Both the position numbers and the translations under genes were made by a program. The notes under the pieces are model-generated. The model was not told where the DNA came from, ran no database searches, and was given only the letters and a program-made list of their open reading frames with translations. A stretch of 64,000 bases of DNA from Bacteroidia bacterium (lineage in GTDB: Bacteria > Bacteroidota > Bacteroidia > Flavobacteriales_D > Cryomorphaceae): contig JAUICL010000001.1 in the NCBI GenBank assembly GCA_030427905.1, positions 310,001 through 374,000 of the forward strand, read 5' to 3'. Below, piece after piece: positions 2,992-57,452 of this stretch; position 1 is the first letter of the stretch, and each line of letters opens with the position of its first letter.

Positions 2992-4545
2992 TTGAAAAAA
3001 TCCATCATAACCATATTAATCGTGCTCATAAGCGTCTCGCTATTGGGTCTGGTGGCCATCCAAATTTACTGGATACAAAACTCCATTGTGCTAAGAGATG
3101 CTCAGTTTAGAAGGAGTGTGAAAATAGCCCTTGCTGAGGTAAATAGCGTGCTGGAGCGACAAGAAAAAATGGCTCGGATCAAGCAGCATGAGTTTGGGAA
3201 ATGGATGCTTGAATACGACAGCATCAGAGCGGCTAGTTCAAATGTGGTGCAATCGACACTTGCCGATACCATAGCCTATCAAGGCCCTCAAAACGACTAC
3301 ATCCTGAAGTTCTCGAACGAAAATACCCGGGTAGAGATCGGAAGTACTGAAGAGCTAGATGCCCTAATAGCACAAGAGTCAGAAAATCTGGCCTACGATA
3401 TCCAAACCGCCTACCCCATCAAGGACTATCAGTCTAATGAGATCGCCGATTTGATGTTTGACTTACTCACCATCGAGTTTAGCACCAACTTCTTAAGTCG
3501 GTATGGAGTGCATGAAATCGATTCGCTAATCAGCACTTCGCTCAAAAATATTGGGGGAATCAAAGCCGAGTATCACTTTGGTATTTTCGACTACGAAGAC
3601 TTACCGCAGCTCGTCCCAGAGCGATCAGAGCCATACATGCGCGAAGTGGTCGAGAAGGGATACAAAGTCAATCTGCTTCCTTCAGATTATGGTACGCCGC
3701 ACACCTACCTTCACCTCTGGTTTCCCAACCAGGAAACCTACTTGGTAAAAACCCTATGGCCCTTGCTGACATCGTCTACGATCTTTATGATAGCCGTCAT
3801 TTTAACCTTCGCCTATACCATCAAGACCATTTTGCGTCAAAAGAAGGTGTCGGAGATCAAAAACGACTTCATCAACAACATGACCCACGAACTCAAAACG
3901 CCGATCTCCACAATTTCGCTGGCCTGTGAAGCGTTATCTGATCCAACTATGTCGAGCTCGAGTCAGAAAGTTGGCCATTTTGTTGGGATGATTCGCGATG
4001 AAAATAAGCGTCTCGGTGTATTGGTTGAAAATGTATTGCGCAGTGCCGTGCTGGACCGTGGTGAGTTGGAAATGTCGAAAGATCATGTCAACATTCACGA
4101 AATAGTAGAAGCGGCTATAAAGAACATCACCTTACAAGCCACCAAGAAAGGCGGTGTGATCCGCAAGAAACTACAAGCTACGCAGCCAGTTTTACGAGGC
4201 GATAAGATTCACTTGACTAATGTGGTTTTTAATCTCCTCGACAACGCCATAAAGTACAGTAAAGAAAAACCCGAGATCACCCTTCGGACGAGAAGCACTG
4301 ATGTGGCCATCATCATTGAAGTAGAAGACAAGGGAATCGGGATTAAAAAAGACGATCAAAAACGCATATTTGACAAACTATACCGGGTATCAACCGGAAA
4401 CATTCACAACATAAAAGGCTTTGGGTTGGGACTAAGCTATGTGCAGGTCATCGTGACCAAGCATCATGGCACGGTCTCTGTGCAAAGTGATTACGGCAAA
4501 GGAAGCACATTCACCATTCAAATACCATACGACTATGACCTCTAA
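2992..4545 (+). CDS. Sensor histidine kinase, RprX-like
   Basis: An inner-membrane two-component sensor kinase of about 517 residues. It has an N-terminal membrane anchor (residues 3-24), a periplasmic sensor region to about 250, a second membrane helix at about 255-278, a HisKA domain with the phosphoacceptor His299 in NNMTHELKTP, and a HATPase domain with the N box LLDNAIKYS, G1 box DKGIGI and G2 box GFGLGLSY. I prefer the TTG at 2992 because the protein then begins LKKSIITI like its relatives. An in-frame GTG at 2959 would add 11 residues without hydrophobic character. The cognate regulator overlaps its 3' end by 11 bases. The arrangement and sequence resemble the RprX/RprY pair of Bacteroides. 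The signal it senses is unknown. Confidence 0.9.
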   Translation: MKKSIITILIVLISVSLLGLVAIQIYWIQNSIVLRDAQFRRSVKIALAEVNSVLERQEKMARIKQHEFGKWMLEYDSIRAASSNVVQSTLADTIAYQGPQNDYILKFSNENTRVEIGSTEELDALIAQESENLAYDIQTAYPIKDYQSNEIADLMFDLLTIEFSTNFLSRYGVHEIDSLISTSLKNIGGIKAEYHFGIFDYEDLPQLVPERSEPYMREVVEKGYKVNLLPSDYGTPHTYLHLWFPNQETYLVKTLWPLLTSSTIFMIAVILTFAYTIKTILRQKKVSEIKNDFINNMTHELKTPISTISLACEALSDPTMSSSSQKVGHFVGMIRDENKRLGVLVENVLRSAVLDRGELEMSKDHVNIHEIVEAAIKNITLQATKKGGVIRKKLQATQPVLRGDKIHLTNVVFNLLDNAIKYSKEKPEITLRTRSTDVAIIIEVEDKGIGIKKDDQKRIFDKLYRVSTGNIHNIKGFGLGLSYVQVIVTKHHGTVSVQSDYGKGSTFTIQIPYDYDL

Positions 4546-6866: not shown

Positions 6867-7664
6867 ATGAAACCCCTTTCAACTATCTTGCTCTTCTGGA
6901 CTCTTTTCGGTTTATCAACCAGTTCTATTGGAGCTTCTCTTGTTCTCAATGGTATTTATCAAGGCAAAGATCTCTATGTCAAAAACCCAAGCACCGGCGA
7001 TGGTGTGGGTTTCTGCGTGTATGAAGTCTTAGTAAACGGTAAAATGACCAGCGATGAAGTGAATAGTTCGGCATTCGCCATCGACTTCAATATTCTCGGA
7101 ATTGAGACAGGTTCCAACATCGAAGTGATTATCAATCACAAGGATGGATGTGCTCCACAAGTGATCAACCCCGAAGTGATAAAACCACATGCCACCTTTC
7201 AAATGAAAGATGTAGCGGTTAAGAATAACATCATTTCTTGGACTACGGAGAATGAAAGTGGATCTCTACCCTTCTATGTCGAGCAATTTAAGTGGAACAA
7301 GTGGGTACGCGTAGGCGAAGTACAGGGAGAAGGAACCGCAGAGCCACATACCTACAGATTTGAATTATCGCCATACAGCGGCGAAAACAAAGTGCGTGTA
7401 AAACAAGTTGATTACAGCGCCAAGCCGAAGTATTCAAAAGAGATTTCTTACAATCCGAATGTAAGCCCAGTAACCTTCGAGCCCAAAAATCCATCTGAAG
7501 AAATCACCTTTTCGAAGGCTACTCAGTATGAGATTTTCGATCACTACGGTGAGCTAGTTAAGACGGGGTTTAGTCAAACGGTGGATGTGAGTTTCTTGGA
7601 GAAAGGAAAGGAGTACTATCTGAATTACGACAGCTCCTTTGGTGAAACATTTAAGAAGAAGTAG
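6867..7664 (+). CDS. Secreted protein with possible C-terminal sorting-domain-like region
   Basis: A 265-residue exported protein of unknown function. Residues 1-23 are a signal peptide (MKPLSTILLFWTLF to IGA). The middle part (SLVLNGIYQGKDLYVKNP and following) contains repeated beta-sandwich-like strands, including a segment resembling a fibronectin type III fold (WTTENESGSLPFYVEQF). The last 45 residues (YEIFDHYGELVKTG, LEKGKEYYLNYD) resemble a type A T9SS sorting domain, but the match is loose. The ATG at 6867 is chosen over an upstream frame start because it begins the signal peptide and sits behind a promoter. It converges with the HAD gene, overlapping by 14 bases. Confidence 0.7.
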   Translation: MKPLSTILLFWTLFGLSTSSIGASLVLNGIYQGKDLYVKNPSTGDGVGFCVYEVLVNGKMTSDEVNSSAFAIDFNILGIETGSNIEVIINHKDGCAPQVINPEVIKPHATFQMKDVAVKNNIISWTTENESGSLPFYVEQFKWNKWVRVGEVQGEGTAEPHTYRFELSPYSGENKVRVKQVDYSAKPKYSKEISYNPNVSPVTFEPKNPSEEITFSKATQYEIFDHYGELVKTGFSQTVDVSFLEKGKEYYLNYDSSFGETFKKK

Positions 7665-8301
7665 CCGGAATCACACCTTCTCTTTTCAAAACATCTTCCA
7701 CTTCTTCCCCATCTTTTAGATGGAAAGATTTGATCCCAAACCGACGTGCCGCTTCGACGTGCATCAGGGTGTCGTCTACAAAGCAAGTCGTGCCCACATC
7801 AATGCCGTTTTCTTCTACAAGTTTGCGAAATATTGCTTCATCGGGCTTTCGTTCATGCATCTGATGGCTGTAGCCAATGAACTCGAATAGCCTCGCAAAC
7901 TCTTCCCAGCCAACAGTTTGATCGATTGTTTTCTCAAACGCTTCCTGGTGCAGAGCATTGGTATTGCTTAAAATGTAGCATTTGTACTTGCCCTGAAGGC
8001 TTTGCAGGAAGTGGAATCTGTGAATAGGAAACTCCCCCAAAAGCGCGTTCCATGCTCGAATAATGTCCTGACTTTCAGCCCGTGGCATGTAGGCCTGTAG
8101 TTCAGCAACAAAGGTTTCACTAGAAATTAATCCCTTCTCGTATTGTTGAAAAAGCGTCGCCTGAATCTCCTTTGTAAAGGCCTTCTCCGGGTTGGTCAAG
8201 CCCAATTTTCCAAAGGCCTCTACCGTTGCCTGATAGTCGATATCGAGCAAAACCTTTCCTAGATCAAAAATGATGGATTCTATGGCGTGATTTGAAGACA
8301 T
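7651..8301 (-). CDS. HAD-family phosphatase, YihX-like
   Basis: A 216-residue haloacid-dehalogenase-superfamily hydrolase. Motif I is FDLGKVLLDID: it has the nucleophile Asp but Gly where many members have the acid-base Asp, as in the YihX sugar-phosphatase subgroup. Motif II is ILSNTN, the lysine is in HERKPDE, and the acidic motif is CFVDDT. An alpha-helical cap lies at about residues 15-85. The substrate, perhaps a sugar phosphate, is inferred. The start is the ATG at 8301 just before FDLGKV. A longer frame from 8391 would run into the tRNA-like repeat and lacks family similarity. The gene converges with the secreted protein at 6867. Confidence 0.87.
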   Translation of the reverse strand: MSSNHAIESIIFDLGKVLLDIDYQATVEAFGKLGLTNPEKAFTKEIQATLFQQYEKGLISSETFVAELQAYMPRAESQDIIRAWNALLGEFPIHRFHFLQSLQGKYKCYILSNTNALHQEAFEKTIDQTVGWEEFARLFEFIGYSHQMHERKPDEAIFRKLVEENGIDVGTTCFVDDTLMHVEAARRFGIKSFHLKDGEEVEDVLKREGVIPATSS

Positions 8302-8364
8302 GGGTAATAAAGGATTTGAAGATTTTGCTAAAGTCCGATTTTCATCTAATTTCGCGAAACTTTC

Positions 8365-8466
8365 TTGGGGCATTAGCTTCCTGACGAGCAAAGCTATCAG
8401 GACTAGAGCGCCCCGAAAGCGTTCGGGGAGGCCTGCGGGAACGATTAATTCGAACCGCTTGCTGAA
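8365..8466 (+). repeat. Degenerate tRNA-Ala copy carrying inserted hairpins
   Basis: This block repeats segments of the intact tRNA-Ala that follows. The 5' end TTGGGGCATTAGCT is identical to 8479-8492. CTAGAGCGC (8403-8411), GAGGCC (8428-8433) and TTCGAA plus CCGCT (8449-8459) follow in tRNA order. Between them the D loop is replaced by an inverted repeat TCCTGA/TCAGGA (8379-8402), and the anticodon arm by a perfect hairpin CCCCGAA-AGCG-TTCGGGG (8411-8428). The T arm has about 10 extra bases. It cannot fold as a working tRNA. It looks like a tRNA remnant or a tRNA-derived element. Confidence 0.65.
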
Positions 8467-8480
8467 CGAAAAAGATTATT

Positions 8481-8554
8481 GGGGCATTAGCTCAGTTGGC
8501 TAGAGCGCTACACTGGCAGTGTAGAGGCCAGCGGTTCGAATCCGCTATGCTCCA
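8481..8554 (+). tRNA. tRNA-Ala (anticodon GGC)
   Basis: A 74-base tRNA with a complete cloverleaf. The acceptor stem GGGGCAT/ATGCTCC has one G-T pair. The D arm contains AGCTCAGTTGGCTAGAGC. The anticodon stem CTACA/TGTAG holds the loop CTGGCAG, giving anticodon GGC (alanine). The T arm AGCGG-TTCGAAT-CCGCT is canonical and the discriminator base is A. CCA is not encoded. A hairpin terminator follows at 8561, then a GIY-YIG gene. Confidence 0.97.
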
Positions 8555-8560
8555 CAATAA

Positions 8561-8585
8561 AGGCTTCCTTCGGGGAGCCTTTCTC
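8561..8585 (+). terminator. Hairpin terminator after tRNA-Ala
   Basis: AGGCTTCC-TTCG-GGGAGCCT forms an 8-bp stem with a TTCG tetraloop (one G-T pair), followed by TTCTCGTT. It lies 6 bases after the tRNA and 4 bases before the GIY-YIG start codon. Confidence 0.6.
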
Positions 8586-8588
8586 GTT

Positions 8589-8840
8589 ATGGCAATTGTG
8601 TACATCATATATTCTGAGAAGTGGGATCGATACTATATCGGGTTTACAGAAAATATAAGCCAGCGATTGTTGTATCACAATTCCGGCAAAAACAAATCAA
8701 CCAGAGGTAGTGAACCATGGGTGCTGAAGTATCACGAAAAACACCCAAGCGCTACATCTGCCCGGAAACGAGAACACGCAATCAAAGCCAAGAAAAGTCG
8801 GAAGTATATTGAATGGTTAATCAACTCAGCGGAAAATTAA
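8589..8840 (+). CDS. Small GIY-YIG nuclease-domain protein (UvrC N-terminal-like)
   Basis: An 83-residue stand-alone GIY-YIG domain. The VYIIY (4-8) and YYIG (15-18) strands, catalytic Arg26 in ISQRL and metal-binding Glu62 in KREHAIK are all present, and the C-terminus ends in SRKYIEWLI as in the URI/YhbQ-type family. Such single-domain proteins are widespread and their role is poorly defined; some relatives are homing-type nucleases. The ATG at 8589 is chosen. The frame stays open back to 8496, but that would translate the tRNA-Ala and its terminator. The gene follows the tRNA directly and is flanked on both sides by degenerate tRNA-like repeats, which suggests the tRNA, repeats and nuclease form one unit. 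Confidence 0.88.
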   Translation: MAIVYIIYSEKWDRYYIGFTENISQRLLYHNSGKNKSTRGSEPWVLKYHEKHPSATSARKREHAIKAKKSRKYIEWLINSAEN

Positions 8841-8844
8841 GTTG

Positions 8845-8893
8845 GCGTCCCGAAGGAATTCGGTGAGGCCACCCCGATCAAATCGGGGTATGC
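8845..8893 (+). repeat. Degenerate tRNA 3'-half downstream of the GIY-YIG gene
   Basis: GCGTCCCGAAGGAATTCGG followed by TGAGGCC (8845-8870) matches 21 of 26 bases of the hairpin unit at 8408-8433. It then continues with a T-arm-shaped hairpin CCCCG-ATCAAAT-CGGGG (5-bp stem, 7-base loop) and TATGC. The order GAGGCCA, T arm, TATGC is that of the tRNA-Ala 3' half. It closes the tRNA/GIY-YIG cassette on the right. Confidence 0.6.
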
Positions 8894-9060
8894 AGTACAA
8901 AATCAATTCACGTAGTCACCAGAGCTAAAGAGATGGTATTGGAGTTTTGCATACACCACTTAAACCGTTGAAAGGCATGGTTTTCGAGATGATGAATGCG
9001 AACTGTAGAACTCCTTTTGAGAAATTTTCTCTAACTTGGTCAAAACAGAAAATCAAAGCC

Positions 9061-9573
9061 ATGAGACGAATTATTCTAGCTTTTCTCTTTATGTCCGCAT
9101 GCATTCTTGAATGTCATTCTCAAGAGAAGGAAAAATTTAAACCGCATCACGAGATAAAACTTAACATCGTATACTCACTAGCTGAAATTGTAGAATTGAA
9201 CTACGAGTTGGTACTAGGTGAAGACTTTTCGGTGGGATTGGCTGCAAACTATTGGTTTGATGAAAGCGCTCGAATTGATTACCAAATCATACCGTACTTC
9301 AGATTCTACCCTCTTAATCAAAAACCATCTGCGGGATTCTTTATTGAAGCGAACACGTCAATCCTAGGCGTTACAAATGAAATTTACAATTTTCCGTACG
9401 AGATGGAAGAAGAGTCTGATGTTGAGTTTGGAATGGGCGTAGCTACTGGCTACAAATTTATTTCTCGAAATGATTTTACCACCGAGCTGTATCTAGGAGC
9501 GGGACGCGTATTTGGAGGAGACTACAACGAGTTCTATCCCAGGCTTGGTATCACCCTAGGAAAGCGATTCTAA
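9061..9573 (+). CDS. Outer-membrane beta-barrel protein, DUF3575-like
   Basis: A 170-residue exported protein. Residues 1-20 are a signal peptide ending HSQ. The rest is a string of short amphipathic strands (IKLNIVYSLAEIVELNYELVL, FSVGLAANYWF, YFRFYPLN, FGMGVATGYKF, GITLGKRF) ending in Phe, as expected of a small outer-membrane barrel. The pattern of a first strand KLN followed by a family-typical ELNYE agrees with DUF3575. The ATG at 9061 gives a clean signal peptide; upstream in-frame ATGs from 8947 do not. It is expected in the outer membrane; its function is unknown. Confidence 0.75.
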   Translation: MRRIILAFLFMSACILECHSQEKEKFKPHHEIKLNIVYSLAEIVELNYELVLGEDFSVGLAANYWFDESARIDYQIIPYFRFYPLNQKPSAGFFIEANTSILGVTNEIYNFPYEMEEESDVEFGMGVATGYKFISRNDFTTELYLGAGRVFGGDYNEFYPRLGITLGKRF

Positions 9574-9646
9574 GCTCACCTGCAAGACTTTCCTACAAAG
9601 CATCAGGAGATAAGCGCATAAAATTTATTCTCCTATTTTTATTGCA

Positions 9647-11959
9647 ATGCGCAATTGGTTCATCTTTACTTTTCTAGTTTCTTGTCTATTCTGCACGAAT
9701 GCAAAAGGCCAAGAAGGCCCAAAGGTGGGTCTCGTGCTAAGTGGTGGTGGGGCCAAAGGAATTGCTCATATCGGTGTGCTCAAATCGATGGAAGAAGCGG
9801 GCATTGTGCCCGACTATATCGTGGGTACCAGTATGGGAGCTATCGTGGGAGCGCTTTACTCCTTAGGTTATTCGGCCGATGAGATCGAAGCTAAAATACT
9901 CGCAATAGATTGGGATTTGATTCTAACCAATCAAGTACCCCTGAACTCCATAGCTTTTGAAGAAAAGGAGTACTACAATCGGTACATGATCGAGTTTCCC
10001 TTTTCGGATGGAAGGGTAAGGCTTCCCAACGGGATGATTGAAAGCCAGTCGCTGACTGAGATATTGCAGTACCACCTTTGGCCGGCCCTGAAGTACAATG
10101 ACTTTGACGAGTTTCCGATACCGTTTCGTTGCGTAGGTACTGACTTGCAGACTGGCGAGGCCATTGTTTTTGACTCGGGTTCACTGTACAAAGCTGTACG
10201 TGCGAGCATGGCTATGCCGGGGGTTTTCACCGCAGTAAATTTGGATTCGACCTATGCTGTAGATGGCGGGCTTGTGGAAAATTTCCCTGTAAACCGGGTG
10301 ATTGAAATGGGGGCCGACTACGTGATTGGAGTGAACGTGAGCAGCACCACCCTGAGCGGACAAGAGAGCTTCGAAACCATCGGCGAGATAGCTATGTCGG
10401 TGGCTATGATTGGCTCAAATAAACGGTCGGCGTCTGAGATCGACTCATGCGACATCTATATCGAACCAGAAGTTGGCGCCTTTTCAGCCGGAAATTTCAC
10501 CAAAGCGCAAGCCATTCTCGAAGCCGGTATTCGAGCGGGAGCATCCCACATCAATGAATTTGACCTATTGGCTGCGAAGCTCAAAAAAGAAACAACGCCA
10601 GAATCCCCAAGAATCGATCCGCTTAAGCTTTCATCTGTTCAAATTGACCACTCCGATCTATTTAGCGATAAACTCCTCCATTCCAAGCTCGATTTATCGT
10701 TAGATGACACCATTAGCAGAAATGCGCTTACTAAATCAGTACGGCAGGTTTTCGGAATCAATGGGTTTCACAAAGTGGAATACACGCTCAATCCAAACAA
10801 GAAAGATGAGCTGCTTATTGACCTTCAGGAAAAAACTCCCGGACGGCTTTTCGCAAGCCTTCACATAGACAACGTCTTTGCCACGGGGCTTCTTTTAAAT
10901 CTAACGTATCGAGATCTCTTGGGAAAAGACTCCCGCTCTATCTTTATACTAGACATCTCGAAAAACCCAAAGTTTAGATTTGATTATTACAAATACATCG
11001 GACTGCGAAAGCGCCTTGCACTCAATTTCAGATATGACTTTCTGAACGAAGAAAGCCCAATCTACGAGCGTGGTGAAGTAAAGGATATTTCGAAAAGTCA
11101 AATTCACAAAGTGAGACTCGGAATACTCAGCACACAATCCCTCAAACAAAGCTTCACTCTACATGGATACTTCAATTCTCAGTCGGCTGGTGACCAATTT
11201 GAGCGAGTGGTTCCTGAAGAGATCGACAAACTCAAACTGAGTGATGCGGGGGTCGAAATAGGCTATTTTCGCAATACGCTCGACAACAGAAACTTTCCTT
11301 CGCGCGGAGTCGAACTCAATTCACTAGTGAGAGCACTTGCTTGGTCAAAATACGAGCTCGTTGCTCAAAGCGGAGTTGATAGCGTTCGAATTTCCGATGA
11401 TCTTGACCTGCTGGTACCTATCGAATTGTATGAAGATATCCTCGATGCCTTGACTCCTGGTTTATACTTTGAGATAATAACCCAAATCAGAAGGTACTTT
11501 GCAATCGGTAAATCAACGAGTATTATCGGCGATTTTGGATTTGGACTTACCATCGGTGAGCTTGATTCTGAGCAGTTTAAGAACCAGTTTTCAATAAGCG
11601 GAAGCAGACGCATGAATCTGAGTGACTTCCGGGCCTACGGCTATAATTACGATGAGTTGACCGCACCAAATCTAGCGATGGCTGGAGCATCTCTTCAAAA
11701 AATAGTATTCAGAAATCTCTTTCTGAGAGGGGGTGCTTCCCTGATCGGCACATACAGATACATCGACTATAAGAATATCTCAGAACAGTTCTCCTTTGAT
11801 GAATTTGAAGAAGAGAATCTAAGTGTAGGCTATGGGTTCGAAGCTTCATTTAGGAGTCGACTAGGCCCAATTTCTGCTGGCGTATCCACCAATACTGATG
11901 ATGGCCAGATTAGGTACTTCTTTTCATTTGGTTATTCTTTTAATTACTCCGACCCCTAA
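9647..11959 (+). CDS. Patatin-like phospholipase fused to a C-terminal outer-membrane barrel
   Basis: A 770-residue protein. A signal peptide (1-21) is followed by a patatin domain (about 25-235) with oxyanion motif SGGGAKG, nucleophile Ser62 in GTSMG and Asp206 in VDGG, the Ser-Asp dyad of lipid acyl hydrolases. A linker with a POTRA-like segment (about 310-385, KSVRQVFGINGFHKVEYTL) leads into a C-terminal barrel (about 390-770) of Omp85/TamA type ending GYSFNYSDP. This is the layout of type Vd patatin proteins such as PlpD and is common in Bacteroidota. It probably sits in the outer membrane; whether the lipase faces the periplasm or the outside is not visible. The ATG at 9647 directly precedes the signal peptide. 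Confidence 0.92.
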   Translation: MRNWFIFTFLVSCLFCTNAKGQEGPKVGLVLSGGGAKGIAHIGVLKSMEEAGIVPDYIVGTSMGAIVGALYSLGYSADEIEAKILAIDWDLILTNQVPLNSIAFEEKEYYNRYMIEFPFSDGRVRLPNGMIESQSLTEILQYHLWPALKYNDFDEFPIPFRCVGTDLQTGEAIVFDSGSLYKAVRASMAMPGVFTAVNLDSTYAVDGGLVENFPVNRVIEMGADYVIGVNVSSTTLSGQESFETIGEIAMSVAMIGSNKRSASEIDSCDIYIEPEVGAFSAGNFTKAQAILEAGIRAGASHINEFDLLAAKLKKETTPESPRIDPLKLSSVQIDHSDLFSDKLLHSKLDLSLDDTISRNALTKSVRQVFGINGFHKVEYTLNPNKKDELLIDLQEKTPGRLFASLHIDNVFATGLLLNLTYRDLLGKDSRSIFILDISKNPKFRFDYYKYIGLRKRLALNFRYDFLNEESPIYERGEVKDISKSQIHKVRLGILSTQSLKQSFTLHGYFNSQSAGDQFERVVPEEIDKLKLSDAGVEIGYFRNTLDNRNFPSRGVELNSLVRALAWSKYELVAQSGVDSVRISDDLDLLVPIELYEDILDALTPGLYFEIITQIRRYFAIGKSTSIIGDFGFGLTIGELDSEQFKNQFSISGSRRMNLSDFRAYGYNYDELTAPNLAMAGASLQKIVFRNLFLRGGASLIGTYRYIDYKNISEQFSFDEFEEENLSVGYGFEASFRSRLGPISAGVSTNTDDGQIRYFFSFGYSFNYSDP

Positions 11960-56727: not shown

Positions 56728-57452
56728 CTGGTCAATTCAATGTATCCTTTATGGGTGGTCTCACCCACCTTAACTATGTAGTAATACGTTCCTGATGATA
56801 GTTCTTCTCCACCATTCGTCCTACCTCTCCACACTCTTTCACCATTATCATAATCATCTATACTCCAGATCATTTGGCCCCAACGATTGAAAATCTCAAC
56901 GCTATTGTCTTGATATTCTTCGAGTTCCACATTGACAATAATCCATGTATCGTTTATGCCGTCTCCATTCGGAGAGAAAGCGTTCAGAAACTGAATAGCA
57001 CAGGCACTGGCAAGCCCTGGTTCCACCGTAAATTCTTGAGTGGTCGAACAGTTTGGAGAGCTTACCGTAACGGAATAATCTCCAGGAGGTAAATTCTGTA
57101 CTTCCTGCCCTTCGTGTCCAGAACTCCAGACAATGGTATATGGACCGGCACAACCAGCCACATCGGTTATGGCGGCGGCACCATCTGATGAAGATGGGCA
57201 GGCCGCATCAGTGACATCTATTACAAAACTGAGTAGACTTTTAGCCAAGGGCTGCTGAAAGCCTTGGGTGAGAATTACATCTTGACTCGATTCAGTTCGA
57301 ACTACTGCCTCGCCTGCCGATGATGTTATAGAAATAACTGAATTGGTAGAATTTAAGCCTCCCGAACCGACCAAAGCTCGGGTGAGCTCTACTTGAGCGG
57401 TGATTTCTACCAAACTCAAACTGAACAATATGGCAATAAGCCATCTAATCAT
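56724..57452 (-). CDS. Small T9SS type B cargo with SprB-like repeat
   Basis: A 242-residue surface protein. It has a signal peptide (1-20, ending TAQ), a short domain (about 21-75, VGSGGLNSTNSVISITSSAGEA) often found in Bacteroidota surface proteins, a SprB-type repeat (about 82-145, DAACPSSSDGAAAITDVAGCAGPYTIVW and LPPGDYSVTV) and a type B sorting domain (about 160-242, FLNAFSPNGDGINDTW, IFNRWGQMIW, GTYYYIVKVGETTHKGYIELTR). The ATG at 57452 is chosen because it begins the signal peptide; it overlaps the preceding gene by 8 bases. It is likely the dedicated cargo of the PorP/SprF homologue next to it. Confidence 0.92.
   Translation of the reverse strand: MIRWLIAILFSLSLVEITAQVELTRALVGSGGLNSTNSVISITSSAGEAVVRTESSQDVILTQGFQQPLAKSLLSFVIDVTDAACPSSSDGAAAITDVAGCAGPYTIVWSSGHEGQEVQNLPPGDYSVTVSSPNCSTTQEFTVEPGLASACAIQFLNAFSPNGDGINDTWIIVNVELEEYQDNSVEIFNRWGQMIWSIDDYDNGERVWRGRTNGGEELSSGTYYYIVKVGETTHKGYIELTR

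Follow-up and report, generated by a model that had tools for sequence, protein, structure and literature searches.

Within the 64,000-nucleotide stretch of DNA that we analysed (the window), an intact tRNA-Ala gene is followed by its terminator and by a small nuclease gene, and all three lie between two degenerate copies of the same tRNA. This nesting had been claimed in a sequence-only reading of the DNA, and searches with ARAGORN, Rfam and Pfam bear it out. The parts of the locus are:

8367..8458, plus strand: copy A, a degenerate 5' part of tRNA-Ala with palindromes at the D-loop and anticodon-arm positions; the 3' acceptor side is gone
8379..8402, plus strand: copy-A hairpin TCCTGACGAGCAAAGCTATCAGGA (TCCTGA..TCAGGA), where the D loop belongs
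8411..8428, plus strand: copy-A perfect 18-nt palindrome CCCCGAAAGCGTTCGGGG, an exact substitute for tRNA nt 28-44 (anticodon arm)
8481..8555, plus strand: copy B, the intact tRNA-Ala(GGC) (ARAGORN; Rfam tRNA, 68.1 bits)
8559..8582, plus strand: terminator hairpin of the tRNA, between tRNA and ORF
8589..8840, plus strand: stand-alone GIY-YIG nuclease ORF of 83 aa (Pfam), which runs at its 3' end into the 5' part of copy C
8820..8893 (start approximate), plus strand: copy C, a degenerate 3' copy of tRNA-Ala with its D-arm sequence fused with the ORF end and its acceptor 3' end decayed
8848..8865, plus strand: copy-C imperfect palindrome TCCCGAAGGAATTCGGTG at the anticodon-arm position
8872..8888, plus strand: copy-C perfect hairpin CCCCGATCAAATCGGGG at the T-arm position

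Copy A begins with GGGGCATTAGCT (8367-8378), which is identical to tRNA nt 1-12. The D-loop hairpin (6-bp stem, 12-nt loop) is followed by CTAGAGCG (8403-8410), the palindrome CCCCGAAAGCGTTCGGGG and AGGCC. The upstream copy therefore does keep tRNA-Ala segments in order with D loop and anticodon arm swapped for hairpins, as had been noticed. In copy C the order is imperfect palindrome, GAGGCCA, hairpin CCCCGATCAAATCGGGG and TATGC. The sequence-only reading had the last three elements right but placed the start of the copy too late. Copy C begins inside the 3' end of the ORF, where ..CTCAGC../GTTGGCG corresponds to the D arm of the tRNA; relatives commonly show this feature too. The match that it had reported between the two hairpin units (8408-8433 and 8845-8870, 21 of 26 bases) is correct and lies beyond all 200 shuffles, whose best 26-nt match averaged 14.7 with a maximum of 18; as a refinement, the palindrome in copy C is imperfect.

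In a second genome of the same family (G002), the orthologous gene adjoins an upstream copy of the same build, its palindromes at identical tRNA positions; TCCCGACTGCGGTCGGGA stands there where copy A of the window has TCCTGACGAGCAAAGCTATCAGGA. The arrangement is thus not due to chance. A group I intron in the tRNA was ruled out, because the tRNA is uninterrupted and Rfam found neither an intron nor any known RNA family besides tRNA within 7600-9700. The GIY-YIG ORF is the sole gene of the cassette and no integrase lies within it, so that the inserted unit does not qualify as a tRNA-targeting integrase element.

The window ORF matches Pfam PF01541 (GIY-YIG) with an E-value of 7e-14, the only other Pfam match being T5orf172. 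The catalytic residues Y16, G18, R26, H30 and E62 are, together with K66, invariant in an alignment of 49 proteins, and 32 of the 49 members give weak matches to TIGR01453, a group I intron endonuclease model. An AlphaFold2 model (mean pLDDT 95.1) predicts a single, fully ordered GIY-YIG domain of 83 aa, and domain match, residues and fold together assign the protein to the GIY-YIG nuclease superfamily. The nearest solved chains are UPF0213 BH0048 (1zg2, E 1e-13) and SLX1 (7cq2, E 3e-8), with I-TevI far weaker. Homing endonucleases of the I-TevI/SegB type usually have a separate C-terminal DNA-binding domain; unlike these, the window protein has none according to the model and Pfam. The resemblance to SLX1 suggests that DNA structure may be what this minimal protein recognises. 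Values of dN/dS between close homologues are 0.04-0.12, and the nuclease is therefore under purifying selection. A search of PHROG gave no match at E 0.01. Ten Rhizobium phage records do contain a GIY-YIG homologue with 46-47% identity to the window protein; in the one inspected, phage RHph_Y65 (MN988525, L136), no annotated tRNA lies within about 2.5 kb of it. There was no plasmid match, and carriage of the cassette by phages or plasmids was rejected.

Homologues of the nuclease were found in 37 of 100 related genomes. Among GTDB species genomes, a scan yielded 73 loci for which the organism is named; the hosts include Pontibacter, Algoriphagus, Echinicola, Mucilaginibacter, Chitinophaga, Flavobacterium and many Chitinophagaceae MAGs. 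Beyond Bacteroidota, homologues occur in Marinimicrobia/Fidelibacterota, Ignavibacteriota (Melioribacteraceae), Kiritimatiellota and CPR bacteria, the last of these from MAGs in which misbinning is possible. An independent draw across the phylum gave a profile match in 85 of 148 Bacteroidota species, with up to 19 copies per genome. The 19 profile matches of one Bacteroidota genome (G225; C23, C30 and C34) include several that are clustered.

To describe the linkage to tRNA genes, we pooled the loci of the related genomes, those of the GTDB scan and 30 loci of one genus into a set of 134, of which a few overlap and close relatives are non-independent. A tRNA or a recognisable piece of one adjoins the homologue in 121 of the 134, compared with 4 of 227 control windows about 1 kb away. 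At 95 loci it is an intact same-strand tRNA within 250 nt, located at a median of 51.5 nt (IQR 44-67) before the start of the match, and at a further 26 at least 18 nt are identical to a tRNA. An opposite-strand tRNA within 250 nt was seen at a single locus. The 13 exceptions are mostly contig ends, short matches or diverged remnants, and the loci at which ARAGORN found no tRNA are mostly arrays, contig ends, gaps or split tRNAs. Among the new loci from the phylum-wide draw, 28 of 29 are linked to a tRNA (Ala, Asp, Asn, Gly, Val, Pro, Ser or Arg). In total, at least ten tRNA isotypes are involved, and the flanking blocks recur across them; the sequence-only reading would have been contradicted by their absence beside other tRNA/GIY-YIG pairs.

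Of the nine GIY-YIG matches in the window's own genome, three are linked to tRNAs (Ala, Asn and a truncated one at Asp), and all three belong to this subfamily. UvrC, an exonuclease-type protein and two YhbQ-like genes are not placed behind tRNAs in this way. Two near-identical YhbQ-like GIY-YIG genes (L127 and L128; G000:C8:197369 and 207640) lie amid longer repeated palindromic sequences, away from tRNAs, and are possibly a second association of GIY-YIG genes with palindromes.

In a tree of 75 nuclease proteins (85 columns, many weak forks) there were 25 changes of tRNA isotype, compared with 39.7 when labels were shuffled, and none of 200 shuffles was as low. By this measure, nuclease phylogeny tracks tRNA isotype, with repeated switches.

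The usual order within the family is intact tRNA, terminator, ORF, spare copy C and a repeat of the same terminator, and every locus retains one intact tRNA. Tandem arrays repeat the ORF together with copy C (L060, L077 and genome G057), and upstream copies of the A type repeat the tRNA leader (L023, L077, L094). There are variants: at L005 and L007 the order is copy A, ORF and intact tRNA, and at L152 and L231 the ORF end directly precedes the intact tRNA. At 36 of 100 loci (control, 1 of 100) the ORF ends in coding sequence that matches the 5' end of the tRNA. Many Ala-type proteins end in ..IEWLISSAG*, encoded by ATT AGC TCA GCT GGC TAG: these codons are the tRNA-Ala D arm, and its TAG serves as the stop.

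In the extra copies, the anticodon arm, T loop or D loop is swapped for a perfect palindrome, typically TCCCGA-N6-TCGGGA. We could anchor 105 palindromes on both sides, from 54 loci. They are located in the anticodon arm (74), the D arm (14, in upstream copies only), the T arm (13) and the variable region (4). Those in the anticodon arm replace exactly nt 27-43 in 27 of the 74 cases, and others just nt 32/33/35-40. A length of 18 nt is shared by 66 of the 105, and 45 start with TCCCGA. The position is fairly consistent within a nuclease clade, being the T loop in the Phe type and the anticodon arm in the Ala type. The 3' part of the downstream copies is 100% identical to the locus's own intact tRNA in 35 of 51 cases. 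On average, it is closer to its own tRNA (0.91) than to tRNAs with the same anticodon at other loci (0.70), and so the copies were made locally.

Short units precede tRNA-Met at three loci (L171, L168 and L172; genomes G057 and G133). Each combines the 5' part of the tRNA, in which TCCGCC..GGCGGA takes the place of the D loop, with the leader; in L171 the units stand in tandem. No nuclease lies within the fetched stretch at these loci.

Syntenic tRNA-Ala loci with and without the cassette were compared, as had been suggested from the sequence. The locus of the window (a HAD gene, then tRNA-Ala) is occupied in the window's genome (G000) and in G002 and empty in five other genomes of the family (G001, G003, G004, G006 and G007), which have no ORF, no copy A and no palindrome there. 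A conserved TCTAATTT..G element immediately precedes the intact tRNA in most genomes with an empty site; in both occupied ones it lies 5' of copy A. This placement, from alignment by eye, suggests that the native 5' position is the one taken by copy A.

A similar picture was obtained in one genus, where 32 of 86 species have homologues at the threshold used. Its tRNA-Phe locus is occupied in G057 (three units), G124, G096, G140 and G133, has a short ORF stub alone in G141 and G152, and is empty in G040, G149, G171 and G125. The empty relatives retain the same first terminator. Tandem amplification is apparent from the three units of G057 compared with the one unit plus stub of its close relative G124. 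Thus the family displays presence and absence at orthologous sites, a feature of free-standing homing endonucleases. Between the distant species G096 and G133, identity is 63-81% upstream and rises to 93-99% from the tRNA through the ORF and spare copy to the second terminator, beyond which similarity is lost. The nuclease genes differ at a dS of 0.24, whereas a flanking gene (446 codons, 70% identity) is saturated. This profile and the contrast in dS show that exactly the cassette, bounded by the duplicated tRNA and terminator, moved between species into the same site. Judging mainly by this one locus in one genus, the cassette is transferred horizontally into its cognate site and the flanks have their own history. 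Presence and absence, tandem amplification and a transferred tract bounded by the tRNA and the second terminator all support the earlier suggestion of a mobile or selfish unit that restores its tRNA, or of tRNA-derived elements spread with the nuclease.

The palindromes are not exclusive to the element, because they are dispersed genome-wide. TCCCGA-N4-8-TCGGGA occurs 18 times in the window's genome (reversed control, 1) and 79 times in G045. In G057, G096 and G078, all of one genus, its place is taken by TCCGCCNNGGCGGA, which occurs 18-27 times in each and is absent from the window's genome. The palindromes of tRNA copies belong to the family that is dispersed in their own genome. The median palindrome density is 1.48/Mb in genomes with the nuclease compared with 0.34/Mb in those without (family-stratified permutation, p 0.0002); the contrast is weaker when only genomes of at least 2.8 Mb are considered (p 0.015). 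A Y1 (RAYT) transposase as carrier of the palindromes was unsupported: four Y1_Tnp loci have no TCCCGA or TCCGCC palindromes and are flanked by other ones.

Other RNA genes of the window's genome are also affected. A partial 5S rRNA copy that has the terminator of the intact 5S gene follows that gene after about 190 nt (L182:837-915; G000:C9, about 3836-3914). In it one hairpin is replaced by TCCCGATAGCTATCGGGA, a change of the type seen in the tRNA copies. There is no detectable ORF between the intact and partial 5S, and a search for a decayed GIY-YIG gene gave nothing above noise. The RNase P RNA gene (L191:438-825; G000:C1:249237-249624) has palindromes of the same family at two peripheral places: one, CCCGATAGCTATCGGG, lies within a CCCCGA/TCGGGG stem close to the 5' end, and the other, CCCGATTTATCGGG, close to the 3' end. 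Upstream of a tRNA-Gly(GCC) gene (L186, minus strand; G000:C5, about 56900-57100) is a degenerate 5' copy with the palindrome TCCCGAAAGCGTTCGGGA at the anticodon-arm position; no GIY-YIG ORF was seen at this locus.

Based on these results, we propose that the locus is probably one copy of a mobile, tRNA-restoring, homing-type cassette with a minimal GIY-YIG endonuclease as its only gene. We infer that the nuclease would cut the DNA of the cognate tRNA gene in a cassette-free allele, in a stem-loop region such as the anticodon arm or T loop. The break would be repaired from the cassette-bearing allele. Its 5' side would pair with the intact donor tRNA, and its 3' side (T arm, acceptor, terminator and flank) with the donor's second tRNA copy. 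The recipient would acquire the tract of tRNA, terminator, ORF and second tRNA copy, while its outer flanks stayed its own. The palindrome in the spare copies would remove the cut site there, so that the 3' side would be forced to anneal past the ORF. Annealing of this kind would result in insertion of the full unit and would always leave one functional tRNA. In Phe-type copies the palindrome lies exactly between both halves of GGTTCGATTC, and a SegB-like T-loop site would therefore be abolished; in Ala-type copies it takes away the anticodon arm. One difficulty for this model is that the adjacent intact tRNA still carries the presumed target, so that the unit has to escape or withstand cutting by its own enzyme. 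As repeats flank the ORF on both sides, recombination between them may account for tandem arrays, ORF loss and left-over degenerate copies.

Islands and ICEs that integrate at tRNA genes also restore a functional tRNA and leave duplicated tRNA fragments. The cassette resembles them in this respect but differs in its size of about 0.3-0.4 kb, in having a nuclease only and no integrase, and in the palindromes of its spare copies. The stand-alone, structure-specific UPF0213/YhbQ and SLX1 proteins are the best profile and fold matches and share the same minimal domain; they have no known tRNA linkage, and the YhbQ-like genes of the window's genome are not linked to tRNAs. The free-standing SegB of phages T4 and T6 is likewise a GIY-YIG nuclease beside tRNA genes, in a phage tRNA region with many isotypes (PMC13096335). 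The motif at which SegB cuts inside tRNA genes, RAWTSGAAC, is complementary to a T-loop sequence, and the enzyme amplifies segments of tRNA plus segB (PMC13096335). SegB is a phage gene, whereas the cassette family is chromosomal, consists of the catalytic domain only and lies within about 50 nt of one tRNA. In addition, it is flanked by palindrome-substituted copies of that tRNA and is nearer to UPF0213/SLX1 by profile and fold. REP/RAYT elements and other bacterial palindromes are also short and dispersed, and their family varies by genome (PMC2817692, PMC3116915); REPs, however, are tied to Y1 (RAYT) transposases, while the enzyme associated here is a GIY-YIG protein and the Y1 genes have other palindromes. 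Of these systems, SegB is the closest experimental precedent, and the cassette probably works like it, yet with a protein nearer to the YhbQ/SLX1 nucleases.

The palindromes are dispersed and genome-specific, and altered copies exist without an ORF (tRNA-Gly and 5S), so that palindrome placement may be a separate process. It is quite conceivable, if not what we favour, that two processes are at work: a tRNA-linked, homing-type GIY-YIG gene, and an unrelated dispersed palindrome that enters or replaces stem-loops of redundant or tolerant structured RNA and accumulates just in non-functional tRNA copies. This explanation departs from the homing cassette in the role of the palindrome alone. It agrees with the sharing of one palindrome family between tRNA copies and the rest of the genome (TCCGCCNNGGCGGA or TCCCGA-N-TCGGGA), with the palindromes in RNase P RNA and the partial 5S copy, where no GIY-YIG gene adjoins, and with those in terminator hairpins (L058). 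Unrelated palindromes would not readily explain why occupied loci have them in the arm expected of a homing repair product, why their position is fairly consistent per nuclease clade, or why their density is higher in nuclease-bearing genomes. That correlation, together with co-occurrence of palindrome and nuclease in several phyla (L042, L085, L094), would instead suit a system akin to REP: a structure-specific GIY-YIG enzyme would take the part of the tyrosine transposase, carry palindromes into the stem-loops of RNA genes and have tRNA genes as its home base. The kinship with SLX1/UPF0213 suits recognition of DNA structure, and the Y1 transposases of these genomes have different flanking palindromes. 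However, GIY-YIG enzymes are not known to insert DNA, genome size and phylogeny confound the correlation, and no intermediate was seen; we regard such a system as unlikely.

The host may also have domesticated the nuclease as a device for tRNA dosage or protection, keeping it to amplify or renew tRNA genes (for example, against tRNA-cleaving defence systems or toxins) or to block integration at tRNA sites. The strong purifying selection speaks for such a device, and integrases are known to cross over in the anticodon and T loops, where the palindromes sit. There is also a precedent in phage T6, which is shielded from a tRNA-cleaving defence by SegB-driven tRNA amplification (PMC13096335). We consider this explanation improbable, as there is usually one intact tRNA and the amplified units multiply mostly the ORF and broken copies, and as the patchy distribution within a genus (32 of 86) and the stubs point to gain and loss. 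Moreover, at four loci (L064, L071, L079 and L080) other DNA seems to have split the tRNA in its anticodon loop although the cassette is present. The tRNA-Ala upstream of the ORF at these loci lacks its 5' half, is broken at the anticodon loop and stands beside unrelated DNA, probably because another element has integrated at the same tRNA. Lastly, a single genome might suggest that GC-rich, terminator-like hairpins had come together by chance around a tRNA and a gene, CCCGA..TCGGG terminators being common. This explanation is refuted by the comparative data (the exact replacement of nt 27-43 in 27 cases, the identity of copies to their local tRNA and the recurrence of the arrangement), and we give it practically no credence.

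One counterpoint to the homing-type cassette is that the protein is a catalytic domain only, has UPF0213 and the structure-specific SLX1 as its nearest relatives and is without the usual homing DNA-binding domain. A categorically new kind of mobile system is also worth stating, although we think it rather unlikely. A structure-specific minimal GIY-YIG nuclease and dispersed palindromes would act together on the stem-loops of structured RNA genes, duplicate the gene, swap an arm of the spare copy for a palindrome and lodge the nuclease gene between the copies. tRNA would be the main host, with the 5S copy and RNase P helices also affected.

In sum, the cassette is a widespread arrangement and, by its behaviour, a variant of free-standing homing endonuclease cassettes. 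It is apparently undescribed: we found no description in the open-access full-text literature, most subscription papers and preprints being outside the reach of the search. The family is present in more than half of the sampled Bacteroidota species, sometimes in many copies. The palindrome substitution is its strangest trait. The family also provides a natural record of the exact replacement of stem-loops by palindromes, for which we know of no accepted mechanism, and is a source of very small nucleases directed at tRNA genes or at structure. If the mechanism that we propose holds, tRNA genes would be intense homing sites in bacterial chromosomes, visited by a nuclease that consists of a catalytic domain only and has host sparing built in.
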